The notes under the pieces were generated by a model. That model did no database searches and was not told the origin of the DNA. It saw only the letters and a list, made by a program, of their open reading frames with translations. From Bacteroidetes bacterium HLUCCA01 (GTDB lineage Bacteria; Bacteroidota; Rhodothermia; Balneolales; HLUCCA01), in assembly GCA_001314545.1 (NCBI GenBank), contig LIHN01000021.1:62001-126000 (forward strand): DNA of 64,000 nucleotides. The letters run 5' to 3'. The first letter of the stretch is position 1. Every line of letters begins with the position of its first letter. Both the position numbers and the translations under genes were made by a program. This document shows, in pieces, positions 29,301-47,648 of the stretch.

Positions 29301-29447
29301 GGGGACGCTCCCCCGGTCGCAGGTTATCTCACCGCGATTGACTACCTGCTCACCCAAACCGGGGACGCTCCCCGGCCGCAGGTTATCTCGCCGCGATTGA
29401 CTACCTGCTCACCCAAACCGGGGACGCTCCCCGGCCGCAGGTTATCT
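29301..29447. repeat. 59/60-bp tandem direct repeat between convergent genes (about 2.5 units)
   Basis: Units containing GGGGACGCTCCCC start at 29301, 29361 and 29420. Each includes a GCAGGTTATCT block; in the third unit this block holds the stop codon of the RND gene (29442-29444). Each unit has a small GGGG/CCCC hairpin. The array fills the space between the T9SS protein gene and the convergent RND gene. Confidence 0.9.
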
Positions 29448-32400
29448 GCCGAACATACCCGTCATCACAAGCAACAGGACCGTGGAGAATCCCAGTCCCC
29501 AGCTTACTACAACCGCCAGGCTGGTCCACACCGGATCCGAGCCAAACAGGATGAGGGGAAACAGTCCGGCTACGGTGGTCAGCGAGGTGATGATAATGGC
29601 CCGAAATCGCGCCCTGTACACGTAAACCCAGCTTCGCAGCCCGAAAACACCCCCTTTTCGCAGGCGCTCTTTTTCGTGCATCAAGAGGATCGCGTTGTTC
29701 ACCACCACCCCCACACTGAGCAATGTGCCCGCGATGGCACCCTGAGCGAAGTTCAATTCGTGAAAGAGTACGCCGCTCATCACGCCCAACAGGGCCAGCG
29801 GCACCGAAACAATCACCCACAGCGGATCCAGCCACTTTTCCAGCAGGGCCGACACGATCATCCACACAGTGAGCAGGGCCATCAGCAGGATGAGCATCAT
29901 ATTCTGACTCGATTCCCGGGTCCCGAACGACCAAAACGTGGGTTCCTGTACCTGAACGCCGATGGGCAACGGGAAGGTGGCGAGTACATCATCCCGAAAT
30001 TGCCTCGCCATCGGGTTTGGACCCAAAAAATCGTAGGATATGCCCCGTGTATAGGCCTGGTCTTCCCGGCGGATGTCGCTCATCACATCGCGAAGTTCCA
30101 GCGTCGCGATTTCGTCCATGGTAAACATCGTCTGGCCATACTGCCTCGGCCGGTCCTGAAACTCCATCCAATAGGTGGATGCACGCGGACCGGTGCCCAT
30201 CAGGTACATTTGCTGGCCCTGAAACTCGACCCGGCCAAACGTATTCTCAGGGTTGATGTCCACTTGAATGGCATCCAGTACCGATCTGCGGTCGAGTCCC
30301 CTGGCCTGAATTTCCAGGTCATCCAGCCCAAGCGAATACTGCTTCATATCGCTTCTGCCCCAGAATCCGGTCTGATTGATGTCCACATTTTGAACGCGGC
30401 GGTTTTGTTCCAGTCTCTCCTGTAGCCGGCGGGCGGTTTGCTCAAGTTCCAGGTAGGAATACCCGCGCAGTGTTATGGTGGAGTTCACACTGCTGCCCCC
30501 GCCACTGAAAAAAGAATCACCCAGTCCGGTAACCGAGATACGGGAGTTGCCCGTTCGGGCGGCCAGGTACGCCGCTTCGGCGTAGAATAGATATGGGTCG
30601 GGCTGCATGAGGGACTCCGGTTTCAGATAGAAGATGAGTCGTGCTCCGAATTGCTCGGACACCCGGGTTTCGTAGTAGTCGAAATACTCGGCATAGGGCT
30701 CGGCAACCACCTCGAAATTCCGCGCGATGGTGTCGATCTCGTCGAGGGGGGTGCCCTGTGGCGTGTTGATGCTCACGAAAACCGTCTCTCCGGTTGAAAA
30801 TCCCCAGGGCTCGCCGAAGTAGGTCTTCTTGAAAAACCGGTAGCTGATGCCGCCAATCCATGGATCAATCGCGCTGCGATTCTCGAAATAGGGCCTGGTG
30901 ATGGATTTCATCCAGCGGGATGTCGTCTCCCCAAACGATGTCCCGGTTTCAGCGCTGGCCGGACGATCCATCGGTTCGGGAATGGCGAAGGTCGGGATGC
31001 CAATGGTCAGCACTACGGCACCAACCAGCAGCCATCGCAGACGACGACGCCAGTAGAATATGCGCAACAGATTGATTTTTCGGAAGATGCCACCCTTGCG
31101 GATGTCGTTGAAGGTCACCCGCTCTTTGATGCCGGCCGGAACCAGCCAGATCAGGGCGTAGGGAATCCAGGTGAGCGATACGAGTACCGAAGCCAGCAGA
31201 GTGAAGGACAAGGCGGTACCCAGAGGCATGAGCACGGCACGGTTCGCCTCCAGGGCAAAAATGAGGGGGATGAAAATACCGATGGTGGTGAGGGTACTGC
31301 CCATGACCGGCACGATGGCCCTGGGGATGTGCTCGCGCAGGTGGCGAACACGCGCATCCCTGCCCTCGGGCAGACCCGGATTCACGATTTCGAAGACCAC
31401 CACGGCATTGTCGATGATCATCCCGATGGCAACGGTGAGTCCGGCCAGGGTGAGGATGTTGATGGTGAGTCCCGTCAGTTGCAGCAGACTGATACTGATA
31501 AGGATGCTGAACAGGATGCTGCCCAGAATGATCACAGGCGCCCTGAACCGGCGAATGAACAGCAAAAGCACCAAAAACACAGCGAGCAGGCTGTACAGGG
31601 ACTGTGTCCGGAGCTCGACCAGTTGCCGGCGCAGCTGTTCGGTGTTGTCCTGCTCGAGCCGGAGTGTGATGCCTTCGGGGAGTTCCGCCTGTATCTGTGC
31701 TATGCGGGACTGTATGGTTTCGGAGAGCGAGAGGGCATCGGCGCCGGGTTCTTTTTCAAATTGTAGGGTCAGCGCCGGATTCCCGTTGATGCGCCTTCGC
31801 TGAAAATCGGGATAGTCGCGAACCTCGACGCGTGCGATGTCGCCCAGAACCAGCTGTCGCTGAGATCCGGGCAGCACAATACGCTGCTGCTCAATGTCTT
31901 GTATGGAGGTGAACTGCGGGGGAACGAGCAAGGCGTAGCGTTGCGACGACTGCTCCGTGAAGCCGGCGGAATGCCAGTTCAGACTACGGTTCACCTGGCT
32001 CAGTATCTCGGCCGGACGTAATCCCAGAAGTTCCAGCTGACGGGTATCAAAAACGACGGTCAACGCCGGTTCGCGCACGCCGTCCAGTTGCACACCGGAC
32101 AGTCCGTCAAGACCCATAAGCGGCAGTCGTATGCGTTGCCGGGCCAGTTCCAGCAGGTTGCGCCGGGGTATATCGCCGTGCAGGGAGTATACCAGAAACG
32201 TTTGCATGGCCTGCAGCTCGGCAGGCACGGAGCGGGAAATCGGTTGCTGTACCACGCTGGAGGGCAGGGTTTCACGGAGGGCGTACAGATCCTCCTGCAG
32301 CTCGATCGACCTGAAGTCAACGGGTGCATCGCGGCGGAATCGAATGGTTACCGATGAATATCCCTCACGGGTGGTGGAGGTGATGTTTTCAACGTCACGC

Positions 32401-32609
32401 AATCGGGATGCGGCCTGCTCTACCTTGCGCGTGACCTCCTGCTCCATGACTTCCGGTGAGGTACTGCCCCAGCTATGAGTGACCGTAAGGGAAGGCAGCT
32501 GCGCGTCGGGCGCCAGCTCCATGGGAATATGCATCCACGATACCACCCCGATGGTCGCCACCAGCAGGTAGAACAGGGAAATCAGGTATCGTCGTTGAAA
32601 AAAACTCAT
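29442..32609 (-). CDS. RND-family efflux permease (second permease of the operon)
   Basis: A 1055-residue inner-membrane proton antiporter from the ATG at 32609 (MSFFQRRYLISLFYLLVATIGVVSW). A longer frame to 32846 would overlap the adaptor gene. It has the standard two-fold RND plan: a helix, a porter loop, six helices, then a repeat. The TM4 motif GLTVAIGMIIDNAVVVFEIV carries Asp-Asn where AcrB has Asp-Asp. It lies downstream of the adaptor in a permease-adaptor-permease operon. HAE-type drug or lipid export is likely; the substrate is unknown. Confidence 0.92.
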   Translation of the reverse strand: MSFFQRRYLISLFYLLVATIGVVSWMHIPMELAPDAQLPSLTVTHSWGSTSPEVMEQEVTRKVEQAASRLRDVENITSTTREGYSSVTIRFRRDAPVDFRSIELQEDLYALRETLPSSVVQQPISRSVPAELQAMQTFLVYSLHGDIPRRNLLELARQRIRLPLMGLDGLSGVQLDGVREPALTVVFDTRQLELLGLRPAEILSQVNRSLNWHSAGFTEQSSQRYALLVPPQFTSIQDIEQQRIVLPGSQRQLVLGDIARVEVRDYPDFQRRRINGNPALTLQFEKEPGADALSLSETIQSRIAQIQAELPEGITLRLEQDNTEQLRRQLVELRTQSLYSLLAVFLVLLLFIRRFRAPVIILGSILFSILISISLLQLTGLTINILTLAGLTVAIGMIIDNAVVVFEIVNPGLPEGRDARVRHLREHIPRAIVPVMGSTLTTIGIFIPLIFALEANRAVLMPLGTALSFTLLASVLVSLTWIPYALIWLVPAGIKERVTFNDIRKGGIFRKINLLRIFYWRRRLRWLLVGAVVLTIGIPTFAIPEPMDRPASAETGTSFGETTSRWMKSITRPYFENRSAIDPWIGGISYRFFKKTYFGEPWGFSTGETVFVSINTPQGTPLDEIDTIARNFEVVAEPYAEYFDYYETRVSEQFGARLIFYLKPESLMQPDPYLFYAEAAYLAARTGNSRISVTGLGDSFFSGGGSSVNSTITLRGYSYLELEQTARRLQERLEQNRRVQNVDINQTGFWGRSDMKQYSLGLDDLEIQARGLDRRSVLDAIQVDINPENTFGRVEFQGQQMYLMGTGPRASTYWMEFQDRPRQYGQTMFTMDEIATLELRDVMSDIRREDQAYTRGISYDFLGPNPMARQFRDDVLATFPLPIGVQVQEPTFWSFGTRESSQNMMLILLMALLTVWMIVSALLEKWLDPLWVIVSVPLALLGVMSGVLFHELNFAQGAIAGTLLSVGVVVNNAILLMHEKERLRKGGVFGLRSWVYVYRARFRAIIITSLTTVAGLFPLILFGSDPVWTSLAVVVSWGLGFSTVLLLVMTGMFGR

Positions 32610-32701
32610 GGATGGTACAAAACCCGGATGTAATGAGATCAATCGTTGCAGCGTTGAACCTGCGCATGCAACAGATCCTGCGTAGGTGCAGGCTGTTGCA
32701 T

Positions 32702-33781
32702 TCAGTTCATCATTCTGACATTCACGCGCTGTTGGTGACTGAGCGCAAAGTGTCGGTCGAAGGCGAGGGTGTCGCCGGCGGTGAAAACGGATTCGTTCAA
32801 CAGGATATACTCCGGCGTAATCATCTCCGGCGACACGTAAATCCACTCGACCATCGACCCGCGGAGACGGAAGACCAGGTGCCGGCCATCGCGCTCAAGG
32901 AGCACGCTTCGGGGAGCACGCAGTACGCCGGACCGTGTTTCGGTTAGAATTCGACCGTTTACGGTCATGCCGGTCTTTAGCAGTCGATCGGAATTCGCCA
33001 CTTCAACCAGTATTTGCCCGGTTTTTCGGTCCCGGTTCACCATGGGCGAGATGGTGCGTATCCGACCGTTCAGAGTCCTGCCGTCGGCTGTGGTGAGTTC
33101 AACGGTCATACCTTCACGCACGGAGGCCAGTTCCGACTCGAGTACATCGAAACGCACCAGCACGGTGCGGTGATCAAGCAGCTTTCCGAGCTCGTTTCCC
33201 GGACCAATAAATGCGCCTGCCGACAAATTCAGTGGAGTGTGGATTTCCCCGGAAAAGGGTGCCTGAAAAACGGTATAGCTGAGGTCCAGTGCGGCGCGTT
33301 CGTAGGCGATTTCAGCCTGAAGCAGTCCGGTCTGTTGGCGAAGCATACGATCCTCGCGCTCGCTGAGCTCCCCCTCGCCGTTGCGGGCCGATCGGGACCG
33401 CAGCTCGCGTTCAATGCGATACTCCTGCTCGGCTTTGAGCCGGGTGTTCAGCGCCTCCCTGTAGCGCAGCTGCCATTCCTCATCCGCTATGCGCAGCAGG
33501 GTGTCGCCGGCGCTTACCCTCATCCCCTCATGAATCTGATGTCGGTCGATGAATCCGCTGAGGCGCGATTGGATGGGGAGCTCCCGGGCCGCCTCAACAA
33601 TACCGGTACTTTCGAGGTAGCGGTGAATGGGCTCGCCGTCCGTTTTCACGAAGACCACATCCGGACGGATTTCAATGCCCTGTGGTCGTTCACGGGTTGA
33701 CGCTTCGCTATCCTCACGGCTGCAGCCAGCCAGTATAAACAGTGCTGAAATCATCATCAACAAGTGGCTCGTCGGCTTCAT
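32702..33781 (-). CDS. RND efflux periplasmic adaptor (membrane-fusion protein), lipoprotein
   Basis: About 359 residues from the ATG at 33781, with lipobox LFILAGC (Cys20). Alternative starts are an ATG at 33793 and one at 33895 that overlaps the upstream stop as ATGA and would allow translational coupling. In order: the first lipoyl half (SRLSGFIDRHQIHEGMRVSAGDTLLRI), a short alpha-hairpin rich in Arg/Glu, the second lipoyl half (YTVFQAPFSGEIHTPLNLSAGAFIGPG), then beta-barrel and membrane-proximal parts. It links the flanking permeases to an outer-membrane channel that is not encoded in this operon. Confidence 0.88.
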   Translation of the reverse strand: MKPTSHLLMMISALFILAGCSREDSEASTRERPQGIEIRPDVVFVKTDGEPIHRYLESTGIVEAARELPIQSRLSGFIDRHQIHEGMRVSAGDTLLRIADEEWQLRYREALNTRLKAEQEYRIERELRSRSARNGEGELSEREDRMLRQQTGLLQAEIAYERAALDLSYTVFQAPFSGEIHTPLNLSAGAFIGPGNELGKLLDHRTVLVRFDVLESELASVREGMTVELTTADGRTLNGRIRTISPMVNRDRKTGQILVEVANSDRLLKTGMTVNGRILTETRSGVLRAPRSVLLERDGRHLVFRLRGSMVEWIYVSPEMITPEYILLNESVFTAGDTLAFDRHFALSHQQRVNVRMMN

Positions 33782-33891
33782 CCGTCGACTCATCACCCGA
33801 GTGCTTCGTACCCTTGCACCATAGTAATGGTCATTTTCGCCAAGGTTCAAACATCCTGCAGACGACGTTGGCGCGATAAATATTGGAAGTA

Positions 33892-36800
33892 TCATAAATG
33901 TTCTGATGGTTGAGCTGAAAATGGGTGGTTCCGATTCACAATCCGGAACAGTACCGGAATGACAAATAAGGTGAGCAATGTCGAGGTGAACATCCCGCCG
34001 ATAAGCGCCGTAGCCAGGGCCTGACGAAATTCATATCCGTCGCCGAAGGGAATGAGCATGGGCAAAAGTCCCAAAATGGTGGTCATGGTAGTCATCAAAA
34101 CCGGTCGAAATCGATGTTTCCCGGCCTGGATGATGGCCTGACTCAGATCGCCGGACTCCTCCAGGTACCTTCGCATGAAATCCACCTTCAAAATGGCATC
34201 GTTTACCGCAATACCGGTGAGAATGAGCAGCCCCATGAAGGAGAGCATGTTCAGGCTTCCTCCCAATATGTACAGTAAAAACAGGGAGCCGATCCAGGCG
34301 AAGGGCACAGCGACCAGAATCAGTGCAGGATAACGCAGGCTTTCGTACTGAACGGCCAGAATGATGTATATAAGGATGAGGCTGATGCCCAAAAGTCGGA
34401 GCATGTCGCGCAGGAGGCGGTCCACCATGAGTGCCGATCCTGCGATGCGCACTTCGATGCCGGTTTCGCGGGTGAATTCCCGCACGGCATCGCGAATTTC
34501 GCGGCCGTTGAACCACCAGTCGGCCAGGGTGAATCCGGTGCGGTAACTGAGCACCGCGGCCTGACCGGCGCGTTCGAGCTGTTCGGGCTCCTGAACCTGT
34601 TCAATGGCCAGGAGTTCGCGAAGCGGGATGTTGCGTCCGCCGGCGGACATGACCAGCGACTGGGGATCCACAAAGGATTCGCGGTCGCTGAACAGGCGAA
34701 TGGCTATGCTTTCATCTTCCCGATTCCATTCGGTGACCAGATTACCCCGCGCGCGGGACTCGAGGAAATCGATCACCTGATTCTCGGTGAGTCCGAGTTG
34801 CAGCAACCGGGCGCTGTTGAACCGAATATGCCAGGTATCGACCACTTCGGGATATTGCTTATGCAGGGTGCTTCCCGGGATTCGGGCGGGCAACCACTCC
34901 ATCATGGCTTCTGCCACTCTTTCGCTGAATACCCGGTCCGTGCCCACAAATTGCAGGATGACGGGATCGGTGTTCCCGCCGGTTAGTGTGCCAAGTGCGC
35001 TGTCGCCTTCGAGTCGCTCGAGCGTCCAGCCGGACTGCGATGCAATGCGCTCGCTCATCAGTTGATCGATGTCGGTGGCCCTGTATCCGGGCGGAACGGC
35101 AATTTGAATGGTGAATTTGTTGAGTCCTTCCCGCGCGATGCGACTCAGGTTGGTCTGATCGGTGTAGCCTCCCATGACCAGAATGCCGCGGGTTGGAGGC
35201 GCTGATTCCAACACCGCAGCCAAATCGAGGGAGAGGTCCCGCGCCGCTTGCTGCAGCGTAAGCAGGGAGGTGTTCCCGGGCAGACTCACCCGGTATTGCA
35301 CACGATCCGGCTCGCCTTCGGGGAGCATGGCTTTCGGCAGCTGCCAGAACATCCATCCGGCAAGAATTCCCGGAATAAGGGTAGAAACCAAGACCAGCGC
35401 AGGCCGACCCAGCGCTAACTGCAGCAATCCCTCGTAGAGGCGTTGAACCCGGTTGAGTCCACGAGCGAAAACGTTCCGTTTTTCGTCAGGGTTCGCTTTC
35501 CCATCAACTGTGAAACCTGCATCTTCCTTGTGTGAACGGCTTGCTGCTGCATCTGAATTAGGGTCTGAACCTTCGGCAAGGGCTCTATCGTGCATACTGA
35601 CTGGATCTTCGGCAAAACTTTCATCCTGTTTAACGGGGGGCGCTACACTTTTCTGCCTCGCAGACCGCTTCTGAAACGAAACCACCATCACGGGGATAAT
35701 CCCAAGCGCTAGCAGCAGCGAAGCCAGTAAGCTTACCGACAGAGTGAAGGCCTGATCTCGAAATATGGCGCCTTCAAATCCACCCAGAAACAGCAGGGGC
35801 AAAAAGACCGATATCGTTGTGAATGTAGAAGCCGTCACGGCAAGGGCGATTTCCCGGGTTCCGCGGTGGGCTGACTCCCGAATATCATGTCCGTACTTGC
35901 GATATCGATTGATGTTTTCCAGCACCACAATCGCATTGTCCACCAGCAGCCCGATTCCCAGCGTGAGTCCGCTCAGCGATATGATGTTCAGCTGAATACC
36001 GAACAGATACATCACGAAAAAGGTGAGGAAAATACTGGCGGGAATGGCAATTCCGATCGTAAACGGCATCCTGGGATCGTTCAGAAACACGAACAGCACG
36101 ATGAAAGCGAGGATGCCTCCGTAAGCCAGGGTTTGCAGCAGGTTTTGGATTGTATTCTTTACATATGAGGCGTTTTCCTGCAGGATTTCCACCTGTATGC
36201 CCGGATATTGCCCGGTGATTTCTTCAATCAGCGGACCGAGCGATTCGAACACCCGAACCGTGTTGCTGCCGTAATCCTTTTTCACGAGCACCGTTAAAAC
36301 CTGGCTCCCATTATATAAGGAGAACGATGTGGGGTCCTGCTCATCCAGATACACATCGGCGATTTCGTGGAGGCGGAGGATGCGTTGGGTGTCGGTGAGG
36401 CGGGTCACCGCCAGCATCCGGATATCGTCGATGGACTGAATACGGCTTTGGATGGAAAGCGAATAGCGATACCATCCGTCGCGCAGCTCTCCTGAAGCCG
36501 AGAACACGTTCGCCTGACGAATAACCTCGCGGATTTGGGCTATGGAGAGTCCGTATTGGTCGATGTCGGCCTGACGAAAGCGGATGTGTACCTCCGGAAC
36601 AACGGCTCCGACCAGAACGGCCTGAGCGATACCCTCCTGCTGCTCGAGCCGACGGGTTAACACGTGCTCGGACCAGCGTTTCAGGTTGAGGCGGGTTGCG
36701 AAATCGGGATCGGGCTGACCGGAGGCGGTAATCGAAAGCACAGCAACGGGTTCATCGGCGGGAGTTGTGTAAATCAGGCGAGGTCGACCGGCCTGTTCGG

Positions 36801-37143
36801 GCAGCATCATGCGAACCTGATCCAGTTTTTCGCGGGTGTTGAGGAAAGCGAGGTTCATATCGCGTCCCCAGTCGAAATTCAGGGCAATAATGCTTTGTCC
36901 TTGCCGGGCGAAACTGTGCACACTGCTGATGCCGGGAATGGTGCTCATAACCGCTTCGAGGGGTTCGTTGATGCGTGTTTCGACCTCACGGGCTGAAGCG
37001 CCCGACCACTCGGTTTGCACCAATAGCGATGGGCGGTCGACATCCGGCAGGAGATCCACAGACAAGCTTTGCAGGGCAATCCATCCGAAGATAAATGTTG
37101 CCAGCACGAGCATCAGCGCTGTAACGGGACGGTCAAGTAGCAT
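33892..37143 (-). CDS. RND-family efflux permease (first permease of the operon)
   Basis: A 1083-residue permease starting MLLDRPVTALMLVLATFIFGW. TM4 has GLTLGIGLLVDNAIVVLENINRY, again Asp-Asn for the AcrB Asp-Asp pair. Between the two halves lies an unusually long polar linker of about 70 residues (from KRSARQKSVAPP to about ARGLNR), rich in Asp, Glu, Lys and Ser. The C-terminal helices (ALATALIGGMFTSTLLTLFVIPVLFRIV) are typical. Its stop overlaps a possible adaptor start. It may pair with the second permease as a hetero-oligomer, as MdtB and MdtC do. Confidence 0.92.
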   Translation of the reverse strand: MLLDRPVTALMLVLATFIFGWIALQSLSVDLLPDVDRPSLLVQTEWSGASAREVETRINEPLEAVMSTIPGISSVHSFARQGQSIIALNFDWGRDMNLAFLNTREKLDQVRMMLPEQAGRPRLIYTTPADEPVAVLSITASGQPDPDFATRLNLKRWSEHVLTRRLEQQEGIAQAVLVGAVVPEVHIRFRQADIDQYGLSIAQIREVIRQANVFSASGELRDGWYRYSLSIQSRIQSIDDIRMLAVTRLTDTQRILRLHEIADVYLDEQDPTSFSLYNGSQVLTVLVKKDYGSNTVRVFESLGPLIEEITGQYPGIQVEILQENASYVKNTIQNLLQTLAYGGILAFIVLFVFLNDPRMPFTIGIAIPASIFLTFFVMYLFGIQLNIISLSGLTLGIGLLVDNAIVVLENINRYRKYGHDIRESAHRGTREIALAVTASTFTTISVFLPLLFLGGFEGAIFRDQAFTLSVSLLASLLLALGIIPVMVVSFQKRSARQKSVAPPVKQDESFAEDPVSMHDRALAEGSDPNSDAAASRSHKEDAGFTVDGKANPDEKRNVFARGLNRVQRLYEGLLQLALGRPALVLVSTLIPGILAGWMFWQLPKAMLPEGEPDRVQYRVSLPGNTSLLTLQQAARDLSLDLAAVLESAPPTRGILVMGGYTDQTNLSRIAREGLNKFTIQIAVPPGYRATDIDQLMSERIASQSGWTLERLEGDSALGTLTGGNTDPVILQFVGTDRVFSERVAEAMMEWLPARIPGSTLHKQYPEVVDTWHIRFNSARLLQLGLTENQVIDFLESRARGNLVTEWNREDESIAIRLFSDRESFVDPQSLVMSAGGRNIPLRELLAIEQVQEPEQLERAGQAAVLSYRTGFTLADWWFNGREIRDAVREFTRETGIEVRIAGSALMVDRLLRDMLRLLGISLILIYIILAVQYESLRYPALILVAVPFAWIGSLFLLYILGGSLNMLSFMGLLILTGIAVNDAILKVDFMRRYLEESGDLSQAIIQAGKHRFRPVLMTTMTTILGLLPMLIPFGDGYEFRQALATALIGGMFTSTLLTLFVIPVLFRIVNRNHPFSAQPSEHL

Positions 37144-37672
37144 CAGTTGGGAATCAAGATGAAGTTATGGTCAAATGTACGATGGTGGTTAACTCGTACG
37201 AGCAGACATGACACCTGACTCATGAGTGTTGCCAAACTCTGGCAAGTGATCAAACTAGTGAGCATACCCAAAATCAGGTTACGTCAGGCAGCTCGTGATA
37301 AATATCTGTAAATATGAAGTACTATCCACCCACTTTTAGTGTGAGATATGTGCATGTTTCTGCAGGTATACCGATGTACATCCTATTTTCATTTAGTTCA
37401 CATGACGTTGAATCATAAAGAAATCCGATAGTGGAAAGTGATCAGGTCATTTTAAATGGTGAACGATGGAGTCGGCGGATTCCGGTCACGAGGTCAGGTA
37501 CCGGGTACTTTTTCCTACAGAAGTCGGGCGATTCAAACGTTGAATAACCAAGTCCCGGTTCATTTATAGTGCAAATTATTCACTATACACAAGGAATATG
37601 CACTTATGGAATAACGGGAACAATTAAGTTGCGAAAATAATACTTATTAACCATCTTGCTACTCAATAATGA
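37144..37672. other. AT-rich gap between the RND operon and the cassette array; possible integron left flank
   Basis: About 530 bp with no coding sequence recognised. It ends at the first cassette junction (GTTAGTG at 37673). An integrase gene and attI would be expected on this side of an intact integron. I see no integrase and no palindromic attC here, so the junction could be a relic of attI. Confidence 0.4.
37218..37245. promoter_or_regulatory. Twin palindromes ACTCATGAGT and TTGCCA-N5-TGGCAA upstream of the RND operon
   Basis: Two adjacent perfect palindromes (37218-37227 and 37229-37245) lie 75-100 bp upstream of the first permease ATG. The position suits a repressor operator. No regulator gene is adjacent. 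Confidence 0.35.
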
Positions 37673-37686
37673 GTTAGTGTGCTTTA

Positions 37687-38724
37687 TCATTTCCTTTCAT
37701 ATACTCTAATATTTCCTGCATGATCTAGTGAATTTATCAACAGAAGTTTTTCACCGACGAACCCGATATTGCGCGCATGTTCAGGTAACAAAAACTCACC
37801 AATAAATTCTCCCGTTTCCGCTTCAAACACCATCAGTTTTGAAGTATGTTTCATTTTCTCCAGCAATGCATCGAAGTTAAAAGTATATCTCATTTGCTCC
37901 AATCGTGAAATTGTCTCACCATGAAAATGCATAAATACAAAATCATTGTGATAATATATTCCACGACTTCCTTCAGGATGACTTCCAATACGAGGCATCA
38001 TATAACCCAAATTCTCAGAATCAGCAACCGGTAGATTAAATCCATTGGGTATATTCGAAATCCACTTGATACCATTTTCATCAAGCGCAATTATGAATGA
38101 AGCAAATTCATTGCTTAAGTATATGGCATTGTTAGAATTAGAAATGAACATCGCTTGTAACAAAGCAAAGTTTTTAAAATCATTTAATTCAGAATAGTCA
38201 TCCGTTGATATTTCAAATAGAATATCAGATTCGTTCACGTACTTTGAGTTAAACCGATAGCCTCGTATAAAACTTTCTCCATTATCGATTAAGATAAGTG
38301 TAGAATCATTTACTAAACCAGCTTGGTAGATTCTGTTGCTTAAAGCAGATCCACTTAGGTCGTATAAATACTCGAGATTTGAGCCATATTTTGTTAGTCT
38401 TTGATTTCCAGCGTCGAATAGTAGAATACTGTTATCTGAAAACTTTGTAACTCTTTTGTATTGCGTTGGGCTTACTTCACCTGGTCCCTGTCCAACTCTC
38501 AGGGACTTAATCGTATACCCCTCCACTATATCAATAAGCTTAATAGGTTCTTGTTTATCCGCCAAATCGTTCACTATGGCGTATGATTCATCAATCGTCC
38601 ACATATCATATGGATTATATACAACTTCTCGAATTTCGCTTACAAGCGAGTAGTTTAAATGGTACTCAGCGGTAGTCGTAACTGATACGACTACCACTAA
38701 GTATGTTAGTAGTTTAAATCGCAT
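37687..38724 (-). CDS. Six-bladed beta-propeller protein (exported)
   Basis: A 345-residue protein with a hydrophobic start (MRFKLLTYLVVVVSVTTTAEY) that could be a signal peptide or anchor; no lipobox Cys is present. The block GYTIKSLRVGQGPGEVSPTQY matches the RGxGPGEF signature of the six-bladed beta-propeller (NHL-like) family common in Bacteroidota. NSILLFDAGNQRLTKYGSN and later repeats fit propeller blades. It starts 12 bp after the stop of the Cys-rich peptide gene, so the two are co-transcribed. The pair makes up the first cassette, on the strand opposite to the array direction. Function unknown. Confidence 0.75.
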   Translation of the reverse strand: MRFKLLTYLVVVVSVTTTAEYHLNYSLVSEIREVVYNPYDMWTIDESYAIVNDLADKQEPIKLIDIVEGYTIKSLRVGQGPGEVSPTQYKRVTKFSDNSILLFDAGNQRLTKYGSNLEYLYDLSGSALSNRIYQAGLVNDSTLILIDNGESFIRGYRFNSKYVNESDILFEISTDDYSELNDFKNFALLQAMFISNSNNAIYLSNEFASFIIALDENGIKWISNIPNGFNLPVADSENLGYMMPRIGSHPEGSRGIYYHNDFVFMHFHGETISRLEQMRYTFNFDALLEKMKHTSKLMVFEAETGEFIGEFLLPEHARNIGFVGEKLLLINSLDHAGNIRVYERK

Positions 38725-38736
38725 TATGTGATTTAT

Positions 38737-38958
38737 CTAAGGTTGTATTATTGTCACGTCACCGCAGGAAGTACAATTTTGTCCACCTTTACATAGGCGT
38801 ATAGTTTCTCCGCGGCACTGGCCCAACCAGTTGATTCTCTCAGCACATGTACATGAAGCACAGTTTGCTTCAGTCGGTGTTGTGAAAACAAACCCAGTTG
38901 ACATAATCATTACAACTGATAAGCCAAGTAGTATTCGACGAAACATACTAGTATCCAT
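38737..38958 (-). CDS. Small secreted cysteine-rich peptide
   Basis: A 73-residue peptide with a purine-rich SD (AGAAGAA) before the ATG at 38958. A signal helix (about residues 7-30, ILLGLSVVMIMSTGFVFTTP) is followed by a 45-residue mature part with seven cysteines: NCASCTC, GQC, RLC, QNC and TSC. The size, the Cys-rich tail and the downstream six-bladed propeller recall the NVEALA-type peptides of Bacteroides, which are also encoded beside propeller proteins; the NVEALA motif itself is not present. Odd Cys number suggests either a metal site or a free thiol. Confidence 0.7.
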   Translation of the reverse strand: MDTSMFRRILLGLSVVMIMSTGFVFTTPTEANCASCTCAERINWLGQCRGETIRLCKGGQNCTSCGDVTIIQP

Positions 38959-39065
38959 AATTTCTTCTATTTATTATTGTATTTTATGGGGTTAAGACAT
39001 GCTGCACTATACTAATAAATTTAATAATTTGTTCAAAATAATAATTTTACTGCTATTTCGCGCAC

Positions 39066-39187
39066 ACTAACAATGGTTTCAAGCGGTCTCGCCTACTAGG
39101 TTTTGATGGGCTTGGGAGTTTGCTTAAAAGAACAAAGTCTTTAACTTAATGCAATAGGCTCGCCGCTTAAACCAAAGGCCGTTATGT
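39066..39187 (+). repeat. attC site 1
   Basis: R'' CACTAAC (39066-39072) and R' GTTATGT (39181-39187) flank an imperfect palindrome: GGTTTCAAGCGG near the left end pairs with CCGCTTAAACC near the right. R'' plus its 5' bases (GCACACTAAC) is the reverse complement of GTTAGTGTGC at 37673, the start of the first cassette. Confidence 0.85.
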
Positions 39188-39251
39188 TGCAGTCTAATTA
39201 ACTAGATTGAAACAGTTAACATTTGAAGATGAAACGCAATATATAATACAT

Positions 39252-39800
39252 ATGAACTCAAAAAAATATCTTTGCAAATTGATCTCTATTTTTATTGTTT
39301 TTTTGATGGTTCAACCATTAAAGGCTCAGGGTTTAACCGATGAACGAACTGGAACACAAACCTGGTTGAAATTGGGTATCGGCCATTCCGGGGCAGAAAA
39401 TTTCAGGGGTGTTACCGGGATTGTCAGCGCTCACTATTTTTCAGCGTATGGTGTTATTGGTCTGCGTTATATCGTCTCTGACCGAGCAGGTGTTGACCCC
39501 GGCGTACCCCAAGTAAACAGAATTACAGGAATGAATGAAGTGAGTATGAATTGGGGATATTCTTCAAACGTATCCATTCTATCGCTATCTGCCTCGGCGG
39601 GTCTCGGAAGCCTTTGGTGGCATGAACAGGTAGCAGGTGATCAGGAAAGACTGGTGGTAATATCCGTTCCGTTGGAAGCTCAAATTCTGATAAAAACGGG
39701 TCGTTTTTTGGGTATAGGAGCTATGCTATCAACAAGTTTGAACAAAAAAACTACAATTACAAGCGGAATGCTGGTACTACAGATAGGAAATTTTAAATGA
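39252..39800 (+). CDS. Small exported beta-barrel-like protein
   Basis: A 182-residue protein from the ATG at 39252, with signal peptide ending MVQPLKAQG. The mature part alternates polar and hydrophobic residues in short strands (WLKLGIGHSG, AHYFSAYGVIGLRYIVSD, VSILSLSASAGLGSLWW, LGIGAMLSTSLNKKTTI). This suggests an eight-strand outer-membrane barrel or similar porin-like fold. It is the first gene of the 4.5-kb cassette, upstream of the subtilase. Family not recognised. Confidence 0.65.
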   Translation: MNSKKYLCKLISIFIVFLMVQPLKAQGLTDERTGTQTWLKLGIGHSGAENFRGVTGIVSAHYFSAYGVIGLRYIVSDRAGVDPGVPQVNRITGMNEVSMNWGYSSNVSILSLSASAGLGSLWWHEQVAGDQERLVVISVPLEAQILIKTGRFLGIGAMLSTSLNKKTTITSGMLVLQIGNFK

Positions 39801-39831
39801 CAAAAAATTAAATGAATAAATTTTAAAAACG

Positions 39832-39858
39832 GGAGGAGGCCATGCAGAGGCCTCCTCC
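39832..39858 (+). terminator. Strong GC hairpin (GGAGGAGGCC / GGCCTCCTCC) after the barrel gene
   Basis: Perfect 10-bp arms with a 7-base loop lie 32 bp after the stop. No T-run follows, so it may act as a weak terminator, an mRNA stabiliser or a processing site between the two cassette genes. Confidence 0.5.
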
Positions 39859-39931
39859 CTCGAACGCCGTATTCCCGAAGGGAATGCTCTAACTAACGAT
39901 CAGAACCATAACCTCTTACAGGAGATACAAC

Positions 39932-39976
39932 ATGAAAACAAAGCAAAATACCGAAAAACAACGTAGATATATATAA
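39932..39976 (+). CDS. Short leader frame with strong SD, out of frame with the subtilase
   Basis: AGGAG stands 8 bases before the ATG at 39932. The frame encodes 14 residues (MKTKQNTEKQRRYI) and ends at TAA 39974-39976 inside an (AT)4A tract (39967-39975). Losing one AT pair would join it in frame to the subtilase and give MKTKQNTEKQRRYIILRANM, a good basic n-region for the following signal helix. The subtilase's own ATG at 39991 has no SD. Confidence 0.6.
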   Translation: MKTKQNTEKQRRYI

Positions 39977-39990
39977 TTCTGCGTGCCAAC

Positions 39991-42900
39991 ATGGGACTGC
40001 TTGCGACCTCTCTTGTGCTCATTTCCGGTATCGCAATGGCTCAGACCAAAGCGGATACCCCTGTGCCAGGCGTAATCAACATCAAGTTTAAGCAGGAAAC
40101 ACTGCAGGTAAACAGGCAAGATATCTATCCTGAGGAAATAGAGATATTCGAATTAAGAGCGTTACTGTCCGGGCACGGGTTCGCCCGGGGAGAAAAAATA
40201 TTCCGGCATTTCGAAGCAAGAGATACCCTGACAACTTCAAGAATAAACGGAGAGCCTGTCATCCTGCTTGATCTGTCTCGCTGGTATACCATCTGGGTTG
40301 CCGATACGGTTAACACCCTCCGTTTTGCCGAACAATTGATGGAATTGCCAGGTGTGGAAGCGGCCTCACCGGAATTCCTGATGTATCCGCAGCAAGTTTT
40401 TCCTAATGACCCCCGTTTTCAATCAAATAATCAGTGGGGGCTGTATAACTGGGCCAATCCCGGAAAAGATATTCATGCTCCACAGGCTTGGGAGATGAAT
40501 ACCGGAAGAAGTGATGTGATTATTGCCGTAATTGATGGCGGGGTCGATTACACCCACTCGGATCTGGATCCGGGCAACCGCAGCCGGATCATCCAGGGGT
40601 ATGATGTAGCCGATAACGATTCCAACCCAATGGACGACATCCCTTCACAGTATGGATTCGCCAATCATGGGACAGCTGTAGCCGGTATTATTGGTGCGAT
40701 TACAGACAATAACCAGCAAGTAGCCGGAGTCATGTGGGATGCAAAAATTATGCCTGTGAAGGTCGCTCACACCAGTTCGCCTTGGTGGGATCCGTTTGGC
40801 TGGTCCATGGGAGGTGCCCCTCACAGCAAAGTAGCTGCAGGGGTGGATTGGGCAAGACAAAATGGAGCCAATATCATTAACCTGAGCTTAGGCGGACAAG
40901 GTGTTTCGGGAAACTGGTACAGCACATTTATCAATAATCCTGTCACCCAGGCAACCTATAATGCATATCTTAGTGGTATTTTAGTAGTAGCAGCTATGGG
41001 CAATGACGGAAATCAAACCGTGAATTACCCGGCCGGGTTTCCCTGGACAATAGCTGTTGGAGCCTCCAGTCAATCAGACTTTAAAGCTTCTTTCTCTAAT
41101 TCAGGAAGCCACATTGATGTTGTAGCCCCGGGAGTCAGTTATTATTCCACCTATAGAAACAATCAGGATGGTTCGTTCAGTGGCACTTCGGCAGCGGCTC
41201 CTGTCGTTTCGGGGGTAGCAGGCCTGATCCTCTCGCAAAGCAGAGATTTGGGCTTGAACCTGACCCATGATGACATTCGAAATACTATTCGAGTGACAGC
41301 GGATAAAGTCAGTGGAATGGGTGCTCATAATTTTACTAATGACTACGGCTATGGACGCGTCAATGCTTACGAAGCTTTAAAATTGATCAGCCCACCTAAT
41401 ATCGTAGAACACGGCACTGCGTATGGAGGCAGTTCGACATTGTTTTGGAACAACCATACCCATACATTTTACCGGGGGATGGGGACTCTGGCAACAGGTG
41501 TCTACTACGGTGTCAGAACGTATAAAATTACCGGCTTTACGAGTTTTTCCAATTATTTTGATGAACCACCTGTAGTTTGGATCCGGGATCAAACTACAAA
41601 AGGTTGGAGTGGCGCAAATCCAAATATGCAAGTGCCATGGGTAAATATCACCAGTGTAACTAAGTCTGGGTTTTATTATGAAACATTTGTTTACTGGATT
41701 GGAACCAATTCTGCGGGACAATCAATCAATACCTATTATCCGGCTTCTCCGTCAAATGCAAGAATTGATTACACCGCTGTTGGTAAGCTTTCTGGTGATG
41801 TTTGGAGTGGTAATATGAATATTACTTCCACTTACACTGTAGAGGCAACTGATCTATTAACTATCACCCCTGGATCCTCCATAACGTTTACTAACAATTC
41901 AGACTTCATTGTAAATGGAGAGTTGATAGCTAATGGAGTTACTTTTGATTTTGTTACTCCATCCAATAACGGTATTAAATTCAATTCTGGTTCTTCCGGT
42001 ACTATTTCTTACTCTACCATTAAGAATGCGACGACCGGCATTTGGGCGACCGGTTCCAGCACCTCAATTAATATACATGACAATGTGATTTCCGACAACG
42101 GGACCGGCGTTCATCTGACATCCACTGGTACGAATGTCCTGATTACAGATAACGTAATTGAAGATAATACGATTGGAATGTGGTTGTACCAGTCCAATGC
42201 TTCCGTTTCTGGAAATATCATTGAGAATAATACCTATGGGATGAACGCCGACTATGTGTCTACTACGGCAGAACACGACGGGAACAAAGTCCGCTACAAT
42301 ACGGCGCGCGGTCTGTTTCTAAATTCCTCTAACCTGTGGGTTACCACCAGTGTGTTTGCGGGAAACGGCGGCAATCAGGTGCTGATCAATGACGGCTGGC
42401 CAAGCTTTGCCGAATCCCCGGGATTCGAAGGGTATAACGTAATCGCCTATGGTGCTGGTCCGATGCTCAAGGCACAAAACGGGGCATACGTATTTATGGG
42501 TTATTCCGCCGATGGCGGATACAATAGTTTCTACGAAACCGACATGCCCCATATCCGGGCGGAAAACAACTCCGGCGTGTGGGCAGACAGAAACTACTGG
42601 GAAGGTGGACCGGGCAACTCCATGGACGGTACATCCTGGGTGACCTCGAATAATACACTTAGCACCGACCCGAATCCACCTTACTACCAGAAAATGATTG
42701 CTGGCAATAGTACTTCCAATAGGTACGATGACACCGATAATCATACTCGCGTCCCTGAAGAACTTTTGACGGCAATGCGTGTGAGCATGGGCGGTGAGAT
42801 AGAACAGGGTTTATCAGTTTTAAAAAGCTACATTGAAAATGATCGTCAATCTTCGTTTGCTCCATTAGCTTTGATTGGTTACAACGCCCTCGTACACAGA

Positions 42901-43581
42901 CAAATGCAGGGCTTGGCTTCTGAGGGGCCGCGTCAAACATTGCAAGCCGAATTGACGGCGTATCTACATTCTCAGTCCACAACCGGCCAATCGGATCCCC
43001 TCTGGCCCTATGCGGTGCGTTTGCTGGCAAATAACGCCATGCTTGAATCAGATTATGAAATTGGCCGGAATCACTTGCTTTCGTTGGCCGAATTTTCATC
43101 GTACGATTCTGTTCATAATCTACTGGCACAGTATAATCTGTTTACCTACTACCTCGAAGTGGAGCAAAATTTCGAGAAGGCAACCTCATATTTAAGTCAA
43201 TTGTTAAGAAATCACCCCGATGATGAATTGACCCAAACAGCGCAAGTACTTGCTGGTATTTACCTTAATAGTGTGCCCGATCCTATTGCTGAGCAGCATG
43301 GCAAAGAGAAACAAATTTCCGACATTGTCCAGGTTGGAGCTTATCCCAATCCATTCAACCCGAATGCGGTAATCCGGTACAGCATCCCGGAAGATGGTCA
43401 GGTAAGGCTTGCCGTATTTGATGTTTTGGGGCGACAAGTGTCAGAGCTTGTCAATGGTTCGGTTCGAGCGGGTGTCCATGAAGTGGCCTTTAACGGCGCA
43501 AATCTGGCATCGGGAATTTACGTGTATAGGCTACAGGTCAGTGGTCAGATTATCACTGGCAAAATGATGCTACTGAAATAA
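39991..43581 (+). CDS. Subtilisin-family (S8) protease with beta-helix region and T9SS sorting domain
   Basis: A 1196-residue secreted protease. After a signal helix (GLLATSLVLISGIAMAQ) and a propeptide-like region come the catalytic triad: Asp182 (AVIDGGVDY), His226 (NHGTAVAG) and Ser400 (SGTSAAAP). Residues about 620-800 hold right-handed beta-helix-type repeats (NVIEDNTIGMWLYQSNASV, GNIIENNTYGM). The C-terminus is a T9SS type A domain (AYPNPFNPNAVIRY...FDVLGRQV...GIYVYRLQV). Translation may begin at 39932 through the AT tract, or at 39991 by reinitiation 14 bases after the leader stop. It fills most of a 4.5-kb integron cassette, very large for one. Substrate unknown. Confidence 0.9.
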   Translation: MGLLATSLVLISGIAMAQTKADTPVPGVINIKFKQETLQVNRQDIYPEEIEIFELRALLSGHGFARGEKIFRHFEARDTLTTSRINGEPVILLDLSRWYTIWVADTVNTLRFAEQLMELPGVEAASPEFLMYPQQVFPNDPRFQSNNQWGLYNWANPGKDIHAPQAWEMNTGRSDVIIAVIDGGVDYTHSDLDPGNRSRIIQGYDVADNDSNPMDDIPSQYGFANHGTAVAGIIGAITDNNQQVAGVMWDAKIMPVKVAHTSSPWWDPFGWSMGGAPHSKVAAGVDWARQNGANIINLSLGGQGVSGNWYSTFINNPVTQATYNAYLSGILVVAAMGNDGNQTVNYPAGFPWTIAVGASSQSDFKASFSNSGSHIDVVAPGVSYYSTYRNNQDGSFSGTSAAAPVVSGVAGLILSQSRDLGLNLTHDDIRNTIRVTADKVSGMGAHNFTNDYGYGRVNAYEALKLISPPNIVEHGTAYGGSSTLFWNNHTHTFYRGMGTLATGVYYGVRTYKITGFTSFSNYFDEPPVVWIRDQTTKGWSGANPNMQVPWVNITSVTKSGFYYETFVYWIGTNSAGQSINTYYPASPSNARIDYTAVGKLSGDVWSGNMNITSTYTVEATDLLTITPGSSITFTNNSDFIVNGELIANGVTFDFVTPSNNGIKFNSGSSGTISYSTIKNATTGIWATGSSTSINIHDNVISDNGTGVHLTSTGTNVLITDNVIEDNTIGMWLYQSNASVSGNIIENNTYGMNADYVSTTAEHDGNKVRYNTARGLFLNSSNLWVTTSVFAGNGGNQVLINDGWPSFAESPGFEGYNVIAYGAGPMLKAQNGAYVFMGYSADGGYNSFYETDMPHIRAENNSGVWADRNYWEGGPGNSMDGTSWVTSNNTLSTDPNPPYYQKMIAGNSTSNRYDDTDNHTRVPEELLTAMRVSMGGEIEQGLSVLKSYIENDRQSSFAPLALIGYNALVHRQMQGLASEGPRQTLQAELTAYLHSQSTTGQSDPLWPYAVRLLANNAMLESDYEIGRNHLLSLAEFSSYDSVHNLLAQYNLFTYYLEVEQNFEKATSYLSQLLRNHPDDELTQTAQVLAGIYLNSVPDPIAEQHGKEKQISDIVQVGAYPNPFNPNAVIRYSIPEDGQVRLAVFDVLGRQVSELVNGSVRAGVHEVAFNGANLASGIYVYRLQVSGQIITGKMMLLK

Positions 43582-43616
43582 GTCGGATAAAAATTCATAA
43601 ACAGGTCTAAACTGCA

Positions 43617-43706
43617 ACATAACAACGGTTTCGTGCGGACAGGTGCTGAGTTACAAGCCTTAGTAGAACTTTTAGCCCCTGCCGCACAAACCGAAAGGCG
43701 TTATGT
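43617..43706 (+). repeat. attC site 2
   Basis: R'' ACATAAC (43617-43623) and R' GTTATGT (43700-43706). Left arm CGGTTTCGTGCGGACAGG pairs imperfectly with right arm CCTGCCGCACAAACCG. The bases through R'' (CTGCAACATAAC) are the reverse complement of GTTATGTTGCAG at 39181, which starts this cassette. Confidence 0.9.
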
Positions 43707-43731
43707 TGCATATAGGAATCCGTCCGTAAAC

Positions 43732-44715
43732 ATGAATTCAGCAAAGATTATTTTATTTTACGTGATCATTAGTATGACTCTGCTTGGTTGCAATAGCTCT
43801 GGTATTATACCATCTGATGCAGAGGACTTGAACTCTGGCTGGCACGAGACAAGTATTGAACATGGAGATATGAGTCGTGTGTTTCGTTTTTATATTCCTG
43901 AGTCTATATCAGAAAATGCGGAAGTAGTTATTCTGCTTCATGGCGGAACACAAAGCATGGACAAGCTTTTTCGTCCCAATGCCGGAGGAACGCAGGAGTG
44001 GCAGCAAATTGCAGAAGAGGAAGGATTTTTGTTGATGGTGCCCAATGGTACCAATAACAACACCGGTTCACCGACAGGAGATAATCAGAGCTGGAATGAT
44101 TGTCGGCCCCAAACCCAGGGCAATCCGGATGCCGATGATGCCGGGTTCATCGTTTCGATGCTGGATTGGGCTGCCGGCCGGTTTGCGCATGAATCAATTA
44201 CACTTAATTTGAATCGAGTGTTTGCAACAGGTGCATCAAATGGTGGGATGATGACGTACAGGCTGGCAACAGAATATCCTGACAAATTTATTGCGGGCGG
44301 TGCATTTATCGCGAACCTGCCTGACCCTACAGAATGCGCGGAAGCAACTACACCTGTACCTATGATCATCGTTAACGGAACTGAAGATCCGTTCATGCTA
44401 TATGAGGGAGGCAGCATTATAGGTGGCCGAGGCGAGGTATTATCATCTGAATCGACCCGGGACTACTGGATTGAAGTCAACCAGGCAGATTCATCAAATC
44501 CAATAATCACCGAGTTTGAAGATCTTGACCCTGATGATGGTAGCGTTGTCATATGTGAATATTACTCATCGGCTTCAGACGGTGCGGATGTCCATTACTG
44601 CAAAGTCGATGGTGGCGGACATACTATGCCATCAATTAACCATCCAACCATTGGCAGGCAGAATCGTGATGTGGAAGGTGCTCGGTTGGTTTGGGAGTTT
44701 TTCGCTAAACAATGA
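43732..44715 (+). CDS. PHB-depolymerase-family (LpqC-like) alpha/beta-hydrolase lipoprotein
   Basis: A 327-residue lipoprotein from the ATG at 43732 (lipobox SMTLLGC). It has the esterase blocks of the poly(3-hydroxybutyrate) depolymerase/feruloyl-esterase family: oxyanion loop VVILLHGGTQS, nucleophile Ser169 in TGASNGGMM, the acid region VNGTEDPF and the catalytic His in GGGHTMP. This group covers cell-surface esterases acting on polyesters or feruloyl or acetyl esters. It is the only gene of its cassette and starts 25 bp after attC 2. Confidence 0.85.
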   Translation: MNSAKIILFYVIISMTLLGCNSSGIIPSDAEDLNSGWHETSIEHGDMSRVFRFYIPESISENAEVVILLHGGTQSMDKLFRPNAGGTQEWQQIAEEEGFLLMVPNGTNNNTGSPTGDNQSWNDCRPQTQGNPDADDAGFIVSMLDWAAGRFAHESITLNLNRVFATGASNGGMMTYRLATEYPDKFIAGGAFIANLPDPTECAEATTPVPMIIVNGTEDPFMLYEGGSIIGGRGEVLSSESTRDYWIEVNQADSSNPIITEFEDLDPDDGSVVICEYYSSASDGADVHYCKVDGGGHTMPSINHPTIGRQNRDVEGARLVWEFFAKQ

Positions 44716-44726
44716 ATACCGGTGCA

Positions 44727-44817
44727 ACATAACAATGCAAATCAAGCGGACGCGTTAGTGTTTAGTTTCTTACATTCAAGGACTTAGCCGCGCCGCTTAT
44801 TTGCCAGACCGTTATAT
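44727..44817 (+). repeat. attC site 3
   Basis: R'' ACATAAC (44727-44733) and R' GTTATAT (44811-44817). GCAAATCAAGCGGACGCG pairs imperfectly with CGCGCCGCTTATTTGC. TGCAACATAAC is the reverse complement of GTTATGTTGCA at 43700, the start of this cassette. Confidence 0.9.
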
Positions 44818-44831
44818 TTCTCTGAATCAAC

Positions 44832-45227
44832 ATGCACAAATTTCTGAGTAAATTATACAAAGTTGTTGGTGTTGAGCTCGGTGATATTTCCAGGAATTTC
44901 GAATTCTTGGAAATCAAAACACTTCATGCTCTAAATAATTCTGATCCCAGAGCGAACAAAGCTGGAGTTTATATTCACTACACAGACGAGCATCAAGTCA
45001 TTAAGGTTGGCAAGCATAACACCAATGCCAGAGTTCGTGCTTTGCAGCACATTCGAGATAATACCAAGAACGATGTGGTTCAAATGTACTCACTCGCAAG
45101 TAATCCAGAGGCGTTGATTTTTTTCATTGTACTAACAGATACGTCTAAAATTCATTGGGTCCTGGCATTAGAAAATTACTTGGAAAAACACCTTAATCCC
45201 ACGATTCGCTCCAAGAGATCCGGGTAA
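44832..45227 (+). CDS. GIY-YIG-like domain protein
   Basis: A 131-residue protein starting 14 bp after attC 3. The block AGVYIHYTDEHQVIKVGKHN followed by NARVRALQHIRDNT resembles the VYI...KVGK variant of the GIY-YIG nuclease core. WVLALENYLEKHLNP supplies the Glu of the metal site. GIY-YIG domains cut DNA in repair, restriction or homing. Small members are frequent in integron arrays. Activity is not established; the first motif lacks a literal GIY. Confidence 0.65.
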   Translation: MHKFLSKLYKVVGVELGDISRNFEFLEIKTLHALNNSDPRANKAGVYIHYTDEHQVIKVGKHNTNARVRALQHIRDNTKNDVVQMYSLASNPEALIFFIVLTDTSKIHWVLALENYLEKHLNPTIRSKRSG

Positions 45228-45275
45228 GGTGATTGCTGGGCTTGATAGATGTTCGCATTTATGCTAACTTATTAA

Positions 45276-45578
45276 ATGCGGAAAATAAACTTCTATCACA
45301 GCGAAAATGGAAAATGCCCGGTGCAATCTTTCTTAGAAAGTCTTCCAGATAAGACGTCAAAGAAGATAGCGTGGGTGTTGAGAACAGTAAGAGAAGTTAA
45401 TCCGGTTCCCGCTCAATACCTTAAAAAGCTGACCAATACTGACGATATTTGGGAAATAAGGGCTACTTTGGGTTCGAATACGTTCCGGCTATTATGTTTT
45501 TTCGACGGTAGTGAACTCATAGTCGCGACCAATGGATTTGCAAAAAAAGACCAACAAAGTACCTCAACAGGAAATTAA
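45276..45578 (+). CDS. HigB/RelE-like toxin, C-terminus shifted at an A7 tract
   Basis: A 100-residue mRNA-interferase-type toxin: YHSENGKCPVQSFLESLPDK, then WEIRATLGSNTFRLLCFF and VATNGFAKK, as in the phage Gp49-like RelE/HigB group. At 45542-45548 an A7 run shifts the reading frame to DQQSTSTGN-stop. With six A residues it would continue KKTNKVPQQEIKLAEERK and on to a TGA at 45628-45630. That gives the usual HigB ending and overlaps the antitoxin ATG at 45623. So the present form is a frameshift mutant, a slippage site or a sequence error. The antitoxin gene follows directly. Confidence 0.8.
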   Translation: MRKINFYHSENGKCPVQSFLESLPDKTSKKIAWVLRTVREVNPVPAQYLKKLTNTDDIWEIRATLGSNTFRLLCFFDGSELIVATNGFAKKDQQSTSTGN

Positions 45579-45622
45579 ACTTGCCGAAGAACGAAAACGC
45601 GATTATTTCAGGAGGAAAGATC

Positions 45623-45901
45623 ATGGGTGACGATTTAGAACGATTTATCGAAAAGAAAAAAGCGGAAAGTCCAGAGTTTGCTGAAAACTTTGAAGAAGGC
45701 TACTTGAACTTCAAGATTGGTGTCATATTACGCCAAGCACGTGAAGATTTGGGCATTACCCAACAAGAGGTGGCCAATAAGTTGAACACGACAAAATCGG
45801 TAATCTCGCGCATGGAGAACCATGCCGATGACATCCGTTTGTCTACATTACGAAAATACGCTCGAGCTTTAGGGCGAAAGGTAAAGCTAGAAATCCAGTA
45901 A
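45623..45901 (+). CDS. XRE-family antitoxin (HigA-like)
   Basis: A 92-residue antitoxin from the ATG at 45623, which has a strong SD (AGGAGG). A TTG start at 45581 is possible but weaker. The helix-turn-helix is ILRQAREDLGITQQEVANKLNTTKSVISRMEN, the Cro/C1 type. The toxin-before-antitoxin order matches HigBA. The gene ends 8 bp before attC 4. Confidence 0.88.
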   Translation: MGDDLERFIEKKKAESPEFAENFEEGYLNFKIGVILRQAREDLGITQQEVANKLNTTKSVISRMENHADDIRLSTLRKYARALGRKVKLEIQ

Positions 45902-45908
45902 AAGAGAA

Positions 45909-46017
45909 ATATAACAACGTTTTCACTTCGTGGCTTTCAGCTCGTGCTGACAGGTGCTGATTTCGATACTTTTGCAAAGTTGGCATCCCCTGCAGCACAA
46001 AACGAAGGCCGTTAAGT
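45909..46017 (+). repeat. attC site 4
   Basis: R'' ATATAAC (45909-45915) and R' GTTAAGT (46011-46017, exact GTTRRRY). AACGTTTT...GTGCTGACAGG pairs with CCTGCAGCACAAAACG, with extra bases in the left arm. AGAGAAATATAAC is the reverse complement of GTTATATTTCTCT at 44811, the start of this cassette. Confidence 0.88.
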
Positions 46018-46032
46018 AACAAAACAATACAC

Positions 46033-46590: not shown

Positions 46591-46596
46591 GGACGG

Positions 46597-47034: not shown

Positions 47035-47123
47035 AGGAATGTATTTGTTATGGTATGCGGTATAAAATACACAATATTCGAATTATTCGAACATTTTAAA
47101 CCATACTGAACTATGGTGTTGTT

Positions 47124-47347: not shown

Positions 47348-47354
47348 TGAAGTT

Positions 47355-47636: not shown

Positions 47637-47648
47637 AAGGCAGAAATT

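Follow-up and report, generated by a model that had tools for sequence, protein, structure and literature searches.

A gene cassette array headed by a probable orphan attI, apart from the integron-integrase gene, in Bacteroidetes bacterium HLUCCA01

A cassette array beside an RND operon in Bacteroidetes bacterium HLUCCA01 begins at a junction (37673|37674) which, judged by homology, is a genuine attI without an integrase in cis, and hence a second, 'orphan', attI of this genome. We consider it likely that an integrase-less attI was duplicated, that cassettes were inserted and exchanged there in trans by the single integrase coded at an spmA/B-like locus on another contig, and that the array is now probably frozen. 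The window, the whole stretch of 64,000 nucleotides that was analysed, spans positions 62001–126000 of contig C11 of the genome (G000; 3.37 Mb in 22 contigs, 98% estimated completeness). It was compared with a metagenome-derived genome (MAG) of the same genus (G001) and, at the RND locus, with relatives comprising Balneolales and other Balneolia/Rhodothermia MAGs and isolates.

The cassette array and its left boundary

The RND operon and the cassette array are separated by 529 bp (37144–37672) with 40% GC, against 52% for the window. The initial annotation had described this gap as about 530 bp of AT-rich DNA before the operon, which fits in length and composition, but its first part (37144–37354) is the leader of the RND operon. 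Array features were located using an attC covariance model trained on eight short attCs from the window, contig C14 and contigs C8 and C17 of G001, attC 1 being left out. With it, five full attCs were recognised in the window, all pointing the same way. The features are as follows:

37144–37354, strand not assigned: RND operon leader, with a blastn match to G001:C8; outside the integron
37355–37563, strand not assigned: 209-bp spacer without a match in G001 and without an integrase remnant (tblastn, 10 IntI proteins)
37564–37621, plus strand: flank upstream of the orphan attI, common only to the orphan attI of G001
37622–37673, plus strand: putative orphan attI, with distal motif at 37622–37653, crossover-proximal 16-mer at 37658–37673 and crossover between G 37673 and T 37674
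37674–39181, plus strand: cassette 1 (1508 bp), carrying a 345-aa ORF (37687–38724) on the opposite strand
39062–39190, plus strand: attC 1 (covariance model, E 2.6e-11; outside the training set)
39182–43700, plus strand: cassette 2 (4519 bp), subtilisin-like secreted protease with a Por secretion tail
43614–43709, plus strand: attC 2 (covariance model)
43701–44811, plus strand: cassette 3, esterase-like
44724–44820, plus strand: attC 3 (covariance model)
44812–46011, plus strand: cassette 4, 131-aa ORF and a Gp49-like/HTH toxin-antitoxin pair
45906–46020, plus strand: attC 4 (covariance model)
46012–47207, plus strand: cassette 5, PIN toxin and an HTH/excisionase-type partner, both on the minus strand
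47121–47216, plus strand: attC 5 (covariance model)
47208–48095, plus strand: cassette 6, HigB/HigA, ending in a truncated attC
48014–48095, plus strand: attC 6, truncated; starts like the other attCs and is then cut off (read from the letters, unrecognised by the model)

Cassette boundaries of the form G|TT were found at 37673, 39181, 43700, 44811, 46011 and 47207. The array thus has its exact left boundary at 37673|37674, where the first cassette begins TTAGTGTGC and pairs with the start of its attC, GCACACTAAC, as is needed for a cassette to close on itself. It had been proposed that the 10-mer GTTAGTGTGC at 37673–37682 is the left end of the first cassette, and it is indeed the exact reverse complement of GCACACTAAC at 39062–39071, the start of attC 1. 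The bare 10-mer has a third exact copy inside an RND gene (34982), and five matches with at most one mismatch were seen compared with 2.7 expected. By these counts it is not significant alone and gains its significance through the array and the attI homology, with which the proposal stands. The claim that no attC lies upstream of 37673 is also upheld: the covariance model found none there at E ≤ 5 with default filters, and the best unfiltered match in 37144–37720 scored 4.8 bits (E 1.1).

The ORF of cassette 1 runs against the attI-to-attC direction, so that a promoter of its own would be needed. For a cassette promoter (Pc) in or near the attI, a scan of 37144–37760 for promoters of the sigma-70 type gave one match, on the minus strand, fewer than the mean of 2.0 in shuffles. 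Propeller-like genes occur near the RND genes in three relatives (directly upstream in two, further upstream in one), and we rejected the idea that the beta-propeller ORF of cassette 1 is an ancestral RND neighbour, its identity to these genes being only 16–23%. Elsewhere in the window a TPP riboswitch lies at 25809–25904 on the minus strand. More attC matches, each on the plus strand, were seen near contig starts (G000:C17:2129–3131, G000:C1:1039–1163 and G001:C5:1041–4606), which is how continuations of arrays cut off at the ends of other contigs would look.

Comparison of attI sites in two genomes

Within the 3.37 Mb genome, the 16-mer that precedes the crossover, GCTACTCAATAATGAG, has exactly two occurrences when up to two mismatches are allowed, at 37658–37673 of the window and at C14:7237–7252, and both copies end exactly at the G of G|TT. 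The copy on C14 is the attI beside the sole integron-integrase gene (intI) of the genome and has the same position relative to the crossover; in the array linked to it, upstream of the integrase gene, the first cassette begins TTATGTTTC and the first attC GAAACATAAC. The motif AATTAAGTTG-N11-CTTATT-N2-CCA is also common to the two sites, and the local alignment of the 150 bp before each crossover was reached by 1 of 2000 dinucleotide shuffles. Blastn of the whole 547-bp region against its own genome returned the self match only (E ≤ 0.001); the homology therefore rests on the short attI core, of about 55 bp. The best attC pairs between the orphan and the intI-linked array are 81–88% identical by blastn and one covariance model fits both, so the attCs of the two arrays appear to be of one kind. 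Visual inspection had suggested an attC half-site on C14, between intI and attI, but the model gave it no support (4.9 bits, E 0.5). The intI-linked array on C14 is broken up by two adjacent ORFs (L010 1795–4174) that resemble an IS21-type transposase pair.

The same layout recurs in G001. On its contig C17, an intact 370-aa intI lies beside the same spmA-like gene and has its own attI, at which the first cassette begins TTAGTGGGC and the first attC GGCCACTAAC. The RND operon of G001 lies on contig C8, where an attI without intI stands 1.7 kb upstream of the operon's start codon; at this attI the first cassette begins TTATGCCACC and the first attC GGTGGCATAAC. The start of the first cassette fits the R'' arm of the first attC at 10/10 positions in the window, 10/10 on C14, 11/11 on C8 and 9/10 on C17. 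Comparison with attI-intI regions, which the initial annotation had suggested as a check, has thus borne out an attI at this junction, through the 16-mer and motif at the C14 site and the repeated layout in G001.

All four sites contain AAWTAAGTTG and CTTAWTNNCCA, with likeness reaching about 52 bp upstream of the crossover. Counted on the letters, AAWTAAGTTG starts 52 bp from the crossover at both orphan sites and 66 and 67 bp from it at the linked ones, and the gap is visible in the alignment of the sites. An upstream flank, CTTATGRAATAACGG, is common to both orphan attIs (37564–37659, covering flank and part of the attI, is 70% identical to G001 over 96 bp), whereas the linked attIs have another flank that is absent from the orphans. 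There are thus two classes of attI, orphan and linked, each represented in both genomes. In the 150-bp local alignments, none of 2000 shuffles reached the scores of window against C8, C14 against C17 or C8 against C17; window against C17 was weaker (8/2000), and the score of C14 against C8 was reached by 1/2000.

The attI motif was drawn from these four sites themselves. At up to one mismatch it was found in 2 of 59 genomes, own genome included, with two sites in each, exactly the known four; at no mismatch it was found in 3 of 244 genomes of the class, as the known four plus one match in a further genome (G061). The latter (L110) has neither attC nearby nor integrase (best tblastn E 0.22) and was taken as chance. 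This type of attI is accordingly one found in only two genomes. RND loci from outside the genus did not contain the motif at up to three substitutions; this absence says little, as several of the contigs are short upstream (87 bp in L072, about 0.5 kb in L068 and L071).

The crossover-proximal 16 bp agree at 16/16 and 13/16 positions within the two genomes and at 9 to 11 of 16 between them, while the distal 32 bp agree about equally, at 22 to 25 of 32, in all six pairs. With four sites this pattern is suggestive only, and both sites of a genome may follow the resident integrase or may have undergone gene conversion. A more tentative idea is that of a two-site integron, in which one integrase would serve two attIs at separate loci, its own and a dedicated integrase-less one beside the RND efflux operon. 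The proximal bases of both attIs would then have changed together in each species so as to stay matched to the resident integrase, and the orphan attI and its array would move from lineage to lineage as a block without the enzyme.

The integrase gene and the origin of the orphan array

The integron-integrase model TIGR02249 has 11 matches in the genome, none of them within the window, which agrees with the initial annotation that no integrase lies upstream of the array. One recognisable integron-integrase gene is present, on C14 (218 bits, the best of the 11 matches). Matches on C17 (L002, L003), C3, C7 and C11 are short or in two parts, with the middle of the model left out, and were set aside; from this pattern, we take them to be Xer-like recombinases. 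The two on C17 (L002 1348–1740, L003 1147–1740) are short recombinase ORFs whose C-terminal regions are almost the same; relatives have longer matches of this kind of pattern, and the two may be decayed copies.

In both genomes intI adjoins spmA/B-like genes, but it measures 370 aa in G001 and is truncated in G000. The C14 gene can be aligned up to about residue 257 of the 370, beyond which it enters the 3' end of the spmA-like gene; spmA keeps its 173 codons. Between the flanking blastn matches there are 99 bp on C14 compared with 675 bp in G001, that is, about 0.58 kb is missing, and the gene has lost its C-terminal ~113 residues by deletion. The lost part includes the catalytic box II and the tyrosine of tyrosine recombinases. 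The broken C14 intI has probably left the array frozen in G000, although the unassembled part of the genome could still hold a second integrase copy.

The arrays behind the two orphan attIs (window and G001:C8) have no cassettes in common by blastn or tblastn. That unrelated cassettes follow one and the same attI core, each array starting exactly at G|TT, points to exchange after the loci separated; exchange needs an integrase, none is present in cis in either genome, and the integrase of the spmA locus acting in trans is the simplest source. We infer insertion and exchange in trans from the attI homology, the crossover, the lack of an integrase remnant, the G001 layout and the broken intI, each of which is read from sequence. 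The IntI coded at the spmA/B locus (C14) would have inserted and exchanged the cassettes at the orphan attI before the gene lost its catalytic half, and without the arrival of another integrase the array would now probably stay frozen. That a local intI was deleted twice, independently and without trace, is possible but less simple. The in-trans reading is weakened in that an intI of the orphan locus could have been deleted tracelessly before the exchange, that both lineages may have the orphan attI through exchange and not through common descent, and that recombination is read here from the sequences of two genomes.

The history of the RND locus bears on the second of these points. Fourfold-site likeness between G000 and G001 (best hit only; RND operon at 29442–37143 of the window against G001:C8, L034) is 0.85 for RND1, 0.69 for the adaptor and 0.70 for RND2, compared with 0.22–0.44 for nine other genes and intI; the M14 peptidase gene to the right has 0.56. 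On G001:C3 (L061 1665–2695), the window's genes at 48.6 kb and 26.7 kb have homologues that directly follow one another, in that order. As these flanking genes are neighbours there, one of the two genomes carries a stretch of about 21 kb (about 26760–48600), with the RND operon and the array, as an insertion or in a new place. Together, these comparisons suggest that RND operon and orphan attI, which probably travelled together, passed between lineages as one block; inheritance of the orphan attI from an ancestor of the genus is thus only one possibility. In another Balneolia MAG (L073), an attC (7171–7266) and a small gene pair (ORFs 7271–7899) lie directly after the adaptor gene of a related RND operon; no RND2 followed within the 11.5 kb examined.

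The foremost rival, close to the initial annotation's suggestion of an attI next to a deleted intI, is that the RND operon once had a complete integron next to it, from which intI was deleted in place, leaving attI and array. We regard this as unlikely. A real attI is present, as the homology to the C14 site indicates, and the C14 gene shows that intI can be lost by deletion. The suggested deletion at the RND locus itself found no support, the one integrase loss that did occur lying on C14. The translated alignment that had been proposed for the flank, made by tblastn with IntI proteins of the order as queries (10 of 21 candidate loci, chosen because their integrase reads openly and shows a box II pattern), gave no remnant in 37144–37690, the best score being 21.6 bits against up to 22.7 in 30 mononucleotide shuffles. 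G001 likewise has no intI here, its leader and attI being separated by a beta-propeller gene, and the flank common to the linked attIs is missing from both orphans. Had the deletion preceded the split of the loci, the unrelated cassettes would still demand activity in trans.

Less probable again is an off-target origin, in which a first cassette was put into an ordinary genomic site (attG), later ones followed and the attI likeness merely mirrors what the enzyme requires. Off-target insertion is among the origins proposed for clusters of attC sites lacking integrases (CALINs; PMC8618304), and the proximal 16 bp do agree best within each genome (16/16, 13/16), as expected if the resident integrase selects its sites. 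Yet the likeness extends about 52 bp upstream in all four sites, through AAWTAAGTTG and CTTAWTNNCCA, and the two orphans have one spacing and one flank in common. A misjoin of contigs at repeat-like attI or attC sequences is very improbable: arrays easily break contigs and both G001 arrays reach contig ends, but RND leader, orphan flank and attI stand in the same order in G001 with different cassettes, and the orphan upstream flank is unlike that of the linked attI, so that a join at a common upstream stretch is excluded.

Relation to known arrays

CALINs are defined by attCs only (PMC9024848), and the window array, with at least two attCs and no integron integrase nearby, is a CALIN by definition, though one with its own attI. 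Of the parts of a complete integron, it has an attI with a G|TT crossover and a cassette/attC array but no intI in cis. With other CALINs it shares several attCs, toxin-antitoxin cassettes and the lack of intI in the locus, and it differs in retaining at its left end a recognisable attI homologous to the linked attI of the same genome. Like a sedentary chromosomal integron it has a chromosomal attI and an attC array with cassettes joined at G|TT, but its intI, with the first attI, lies at another locus.

The origin of CALINs is debated between intI loss, off-target insertion and rearrangement (PMC8618304). In Treponema phagedenis, attCs persist while intI has seemingly been lost (PMC3607928). 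A parallel exists in Xanthomonas, where CALINs occupy conserved positions apart from the ilvD-intI integron and intI is often inactivated (PMC12444791); the available text of that study mentions no attI at them, whereas the attI of the window is backed by the four-site comparison. Insertions at attG resemble our array in that cassettes lie far from intI and were inserted in trans. According to PMC12901181, however, attG diverges from the classical att sites, while the window site agrees with the resident attI across about 52 bp; this clear attI likeness makes attG insertion less likely here. The phrase 'orphan attI' was not met in the titles and abstract openings of the literature searched, nor anywhere in the papers listed for one search (20 of 66), which is no proof of its absence from print.

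In the IntegronFinder 2.0 data, integrase-less arrays are about as common as complete integrons (2961 CALINs compared with 2760; PMC9024848). The same source states that IntegronFinder leaves attI outside class 1 undetected, and CALINs anchored at an attI may for this reason be overlooked. The pair of related genomes described here, in which an attI heads a CALIN, points to a further route by which such arrays may arise, namely that an attI alone is duplicated or transferred and is then loaded in trans.
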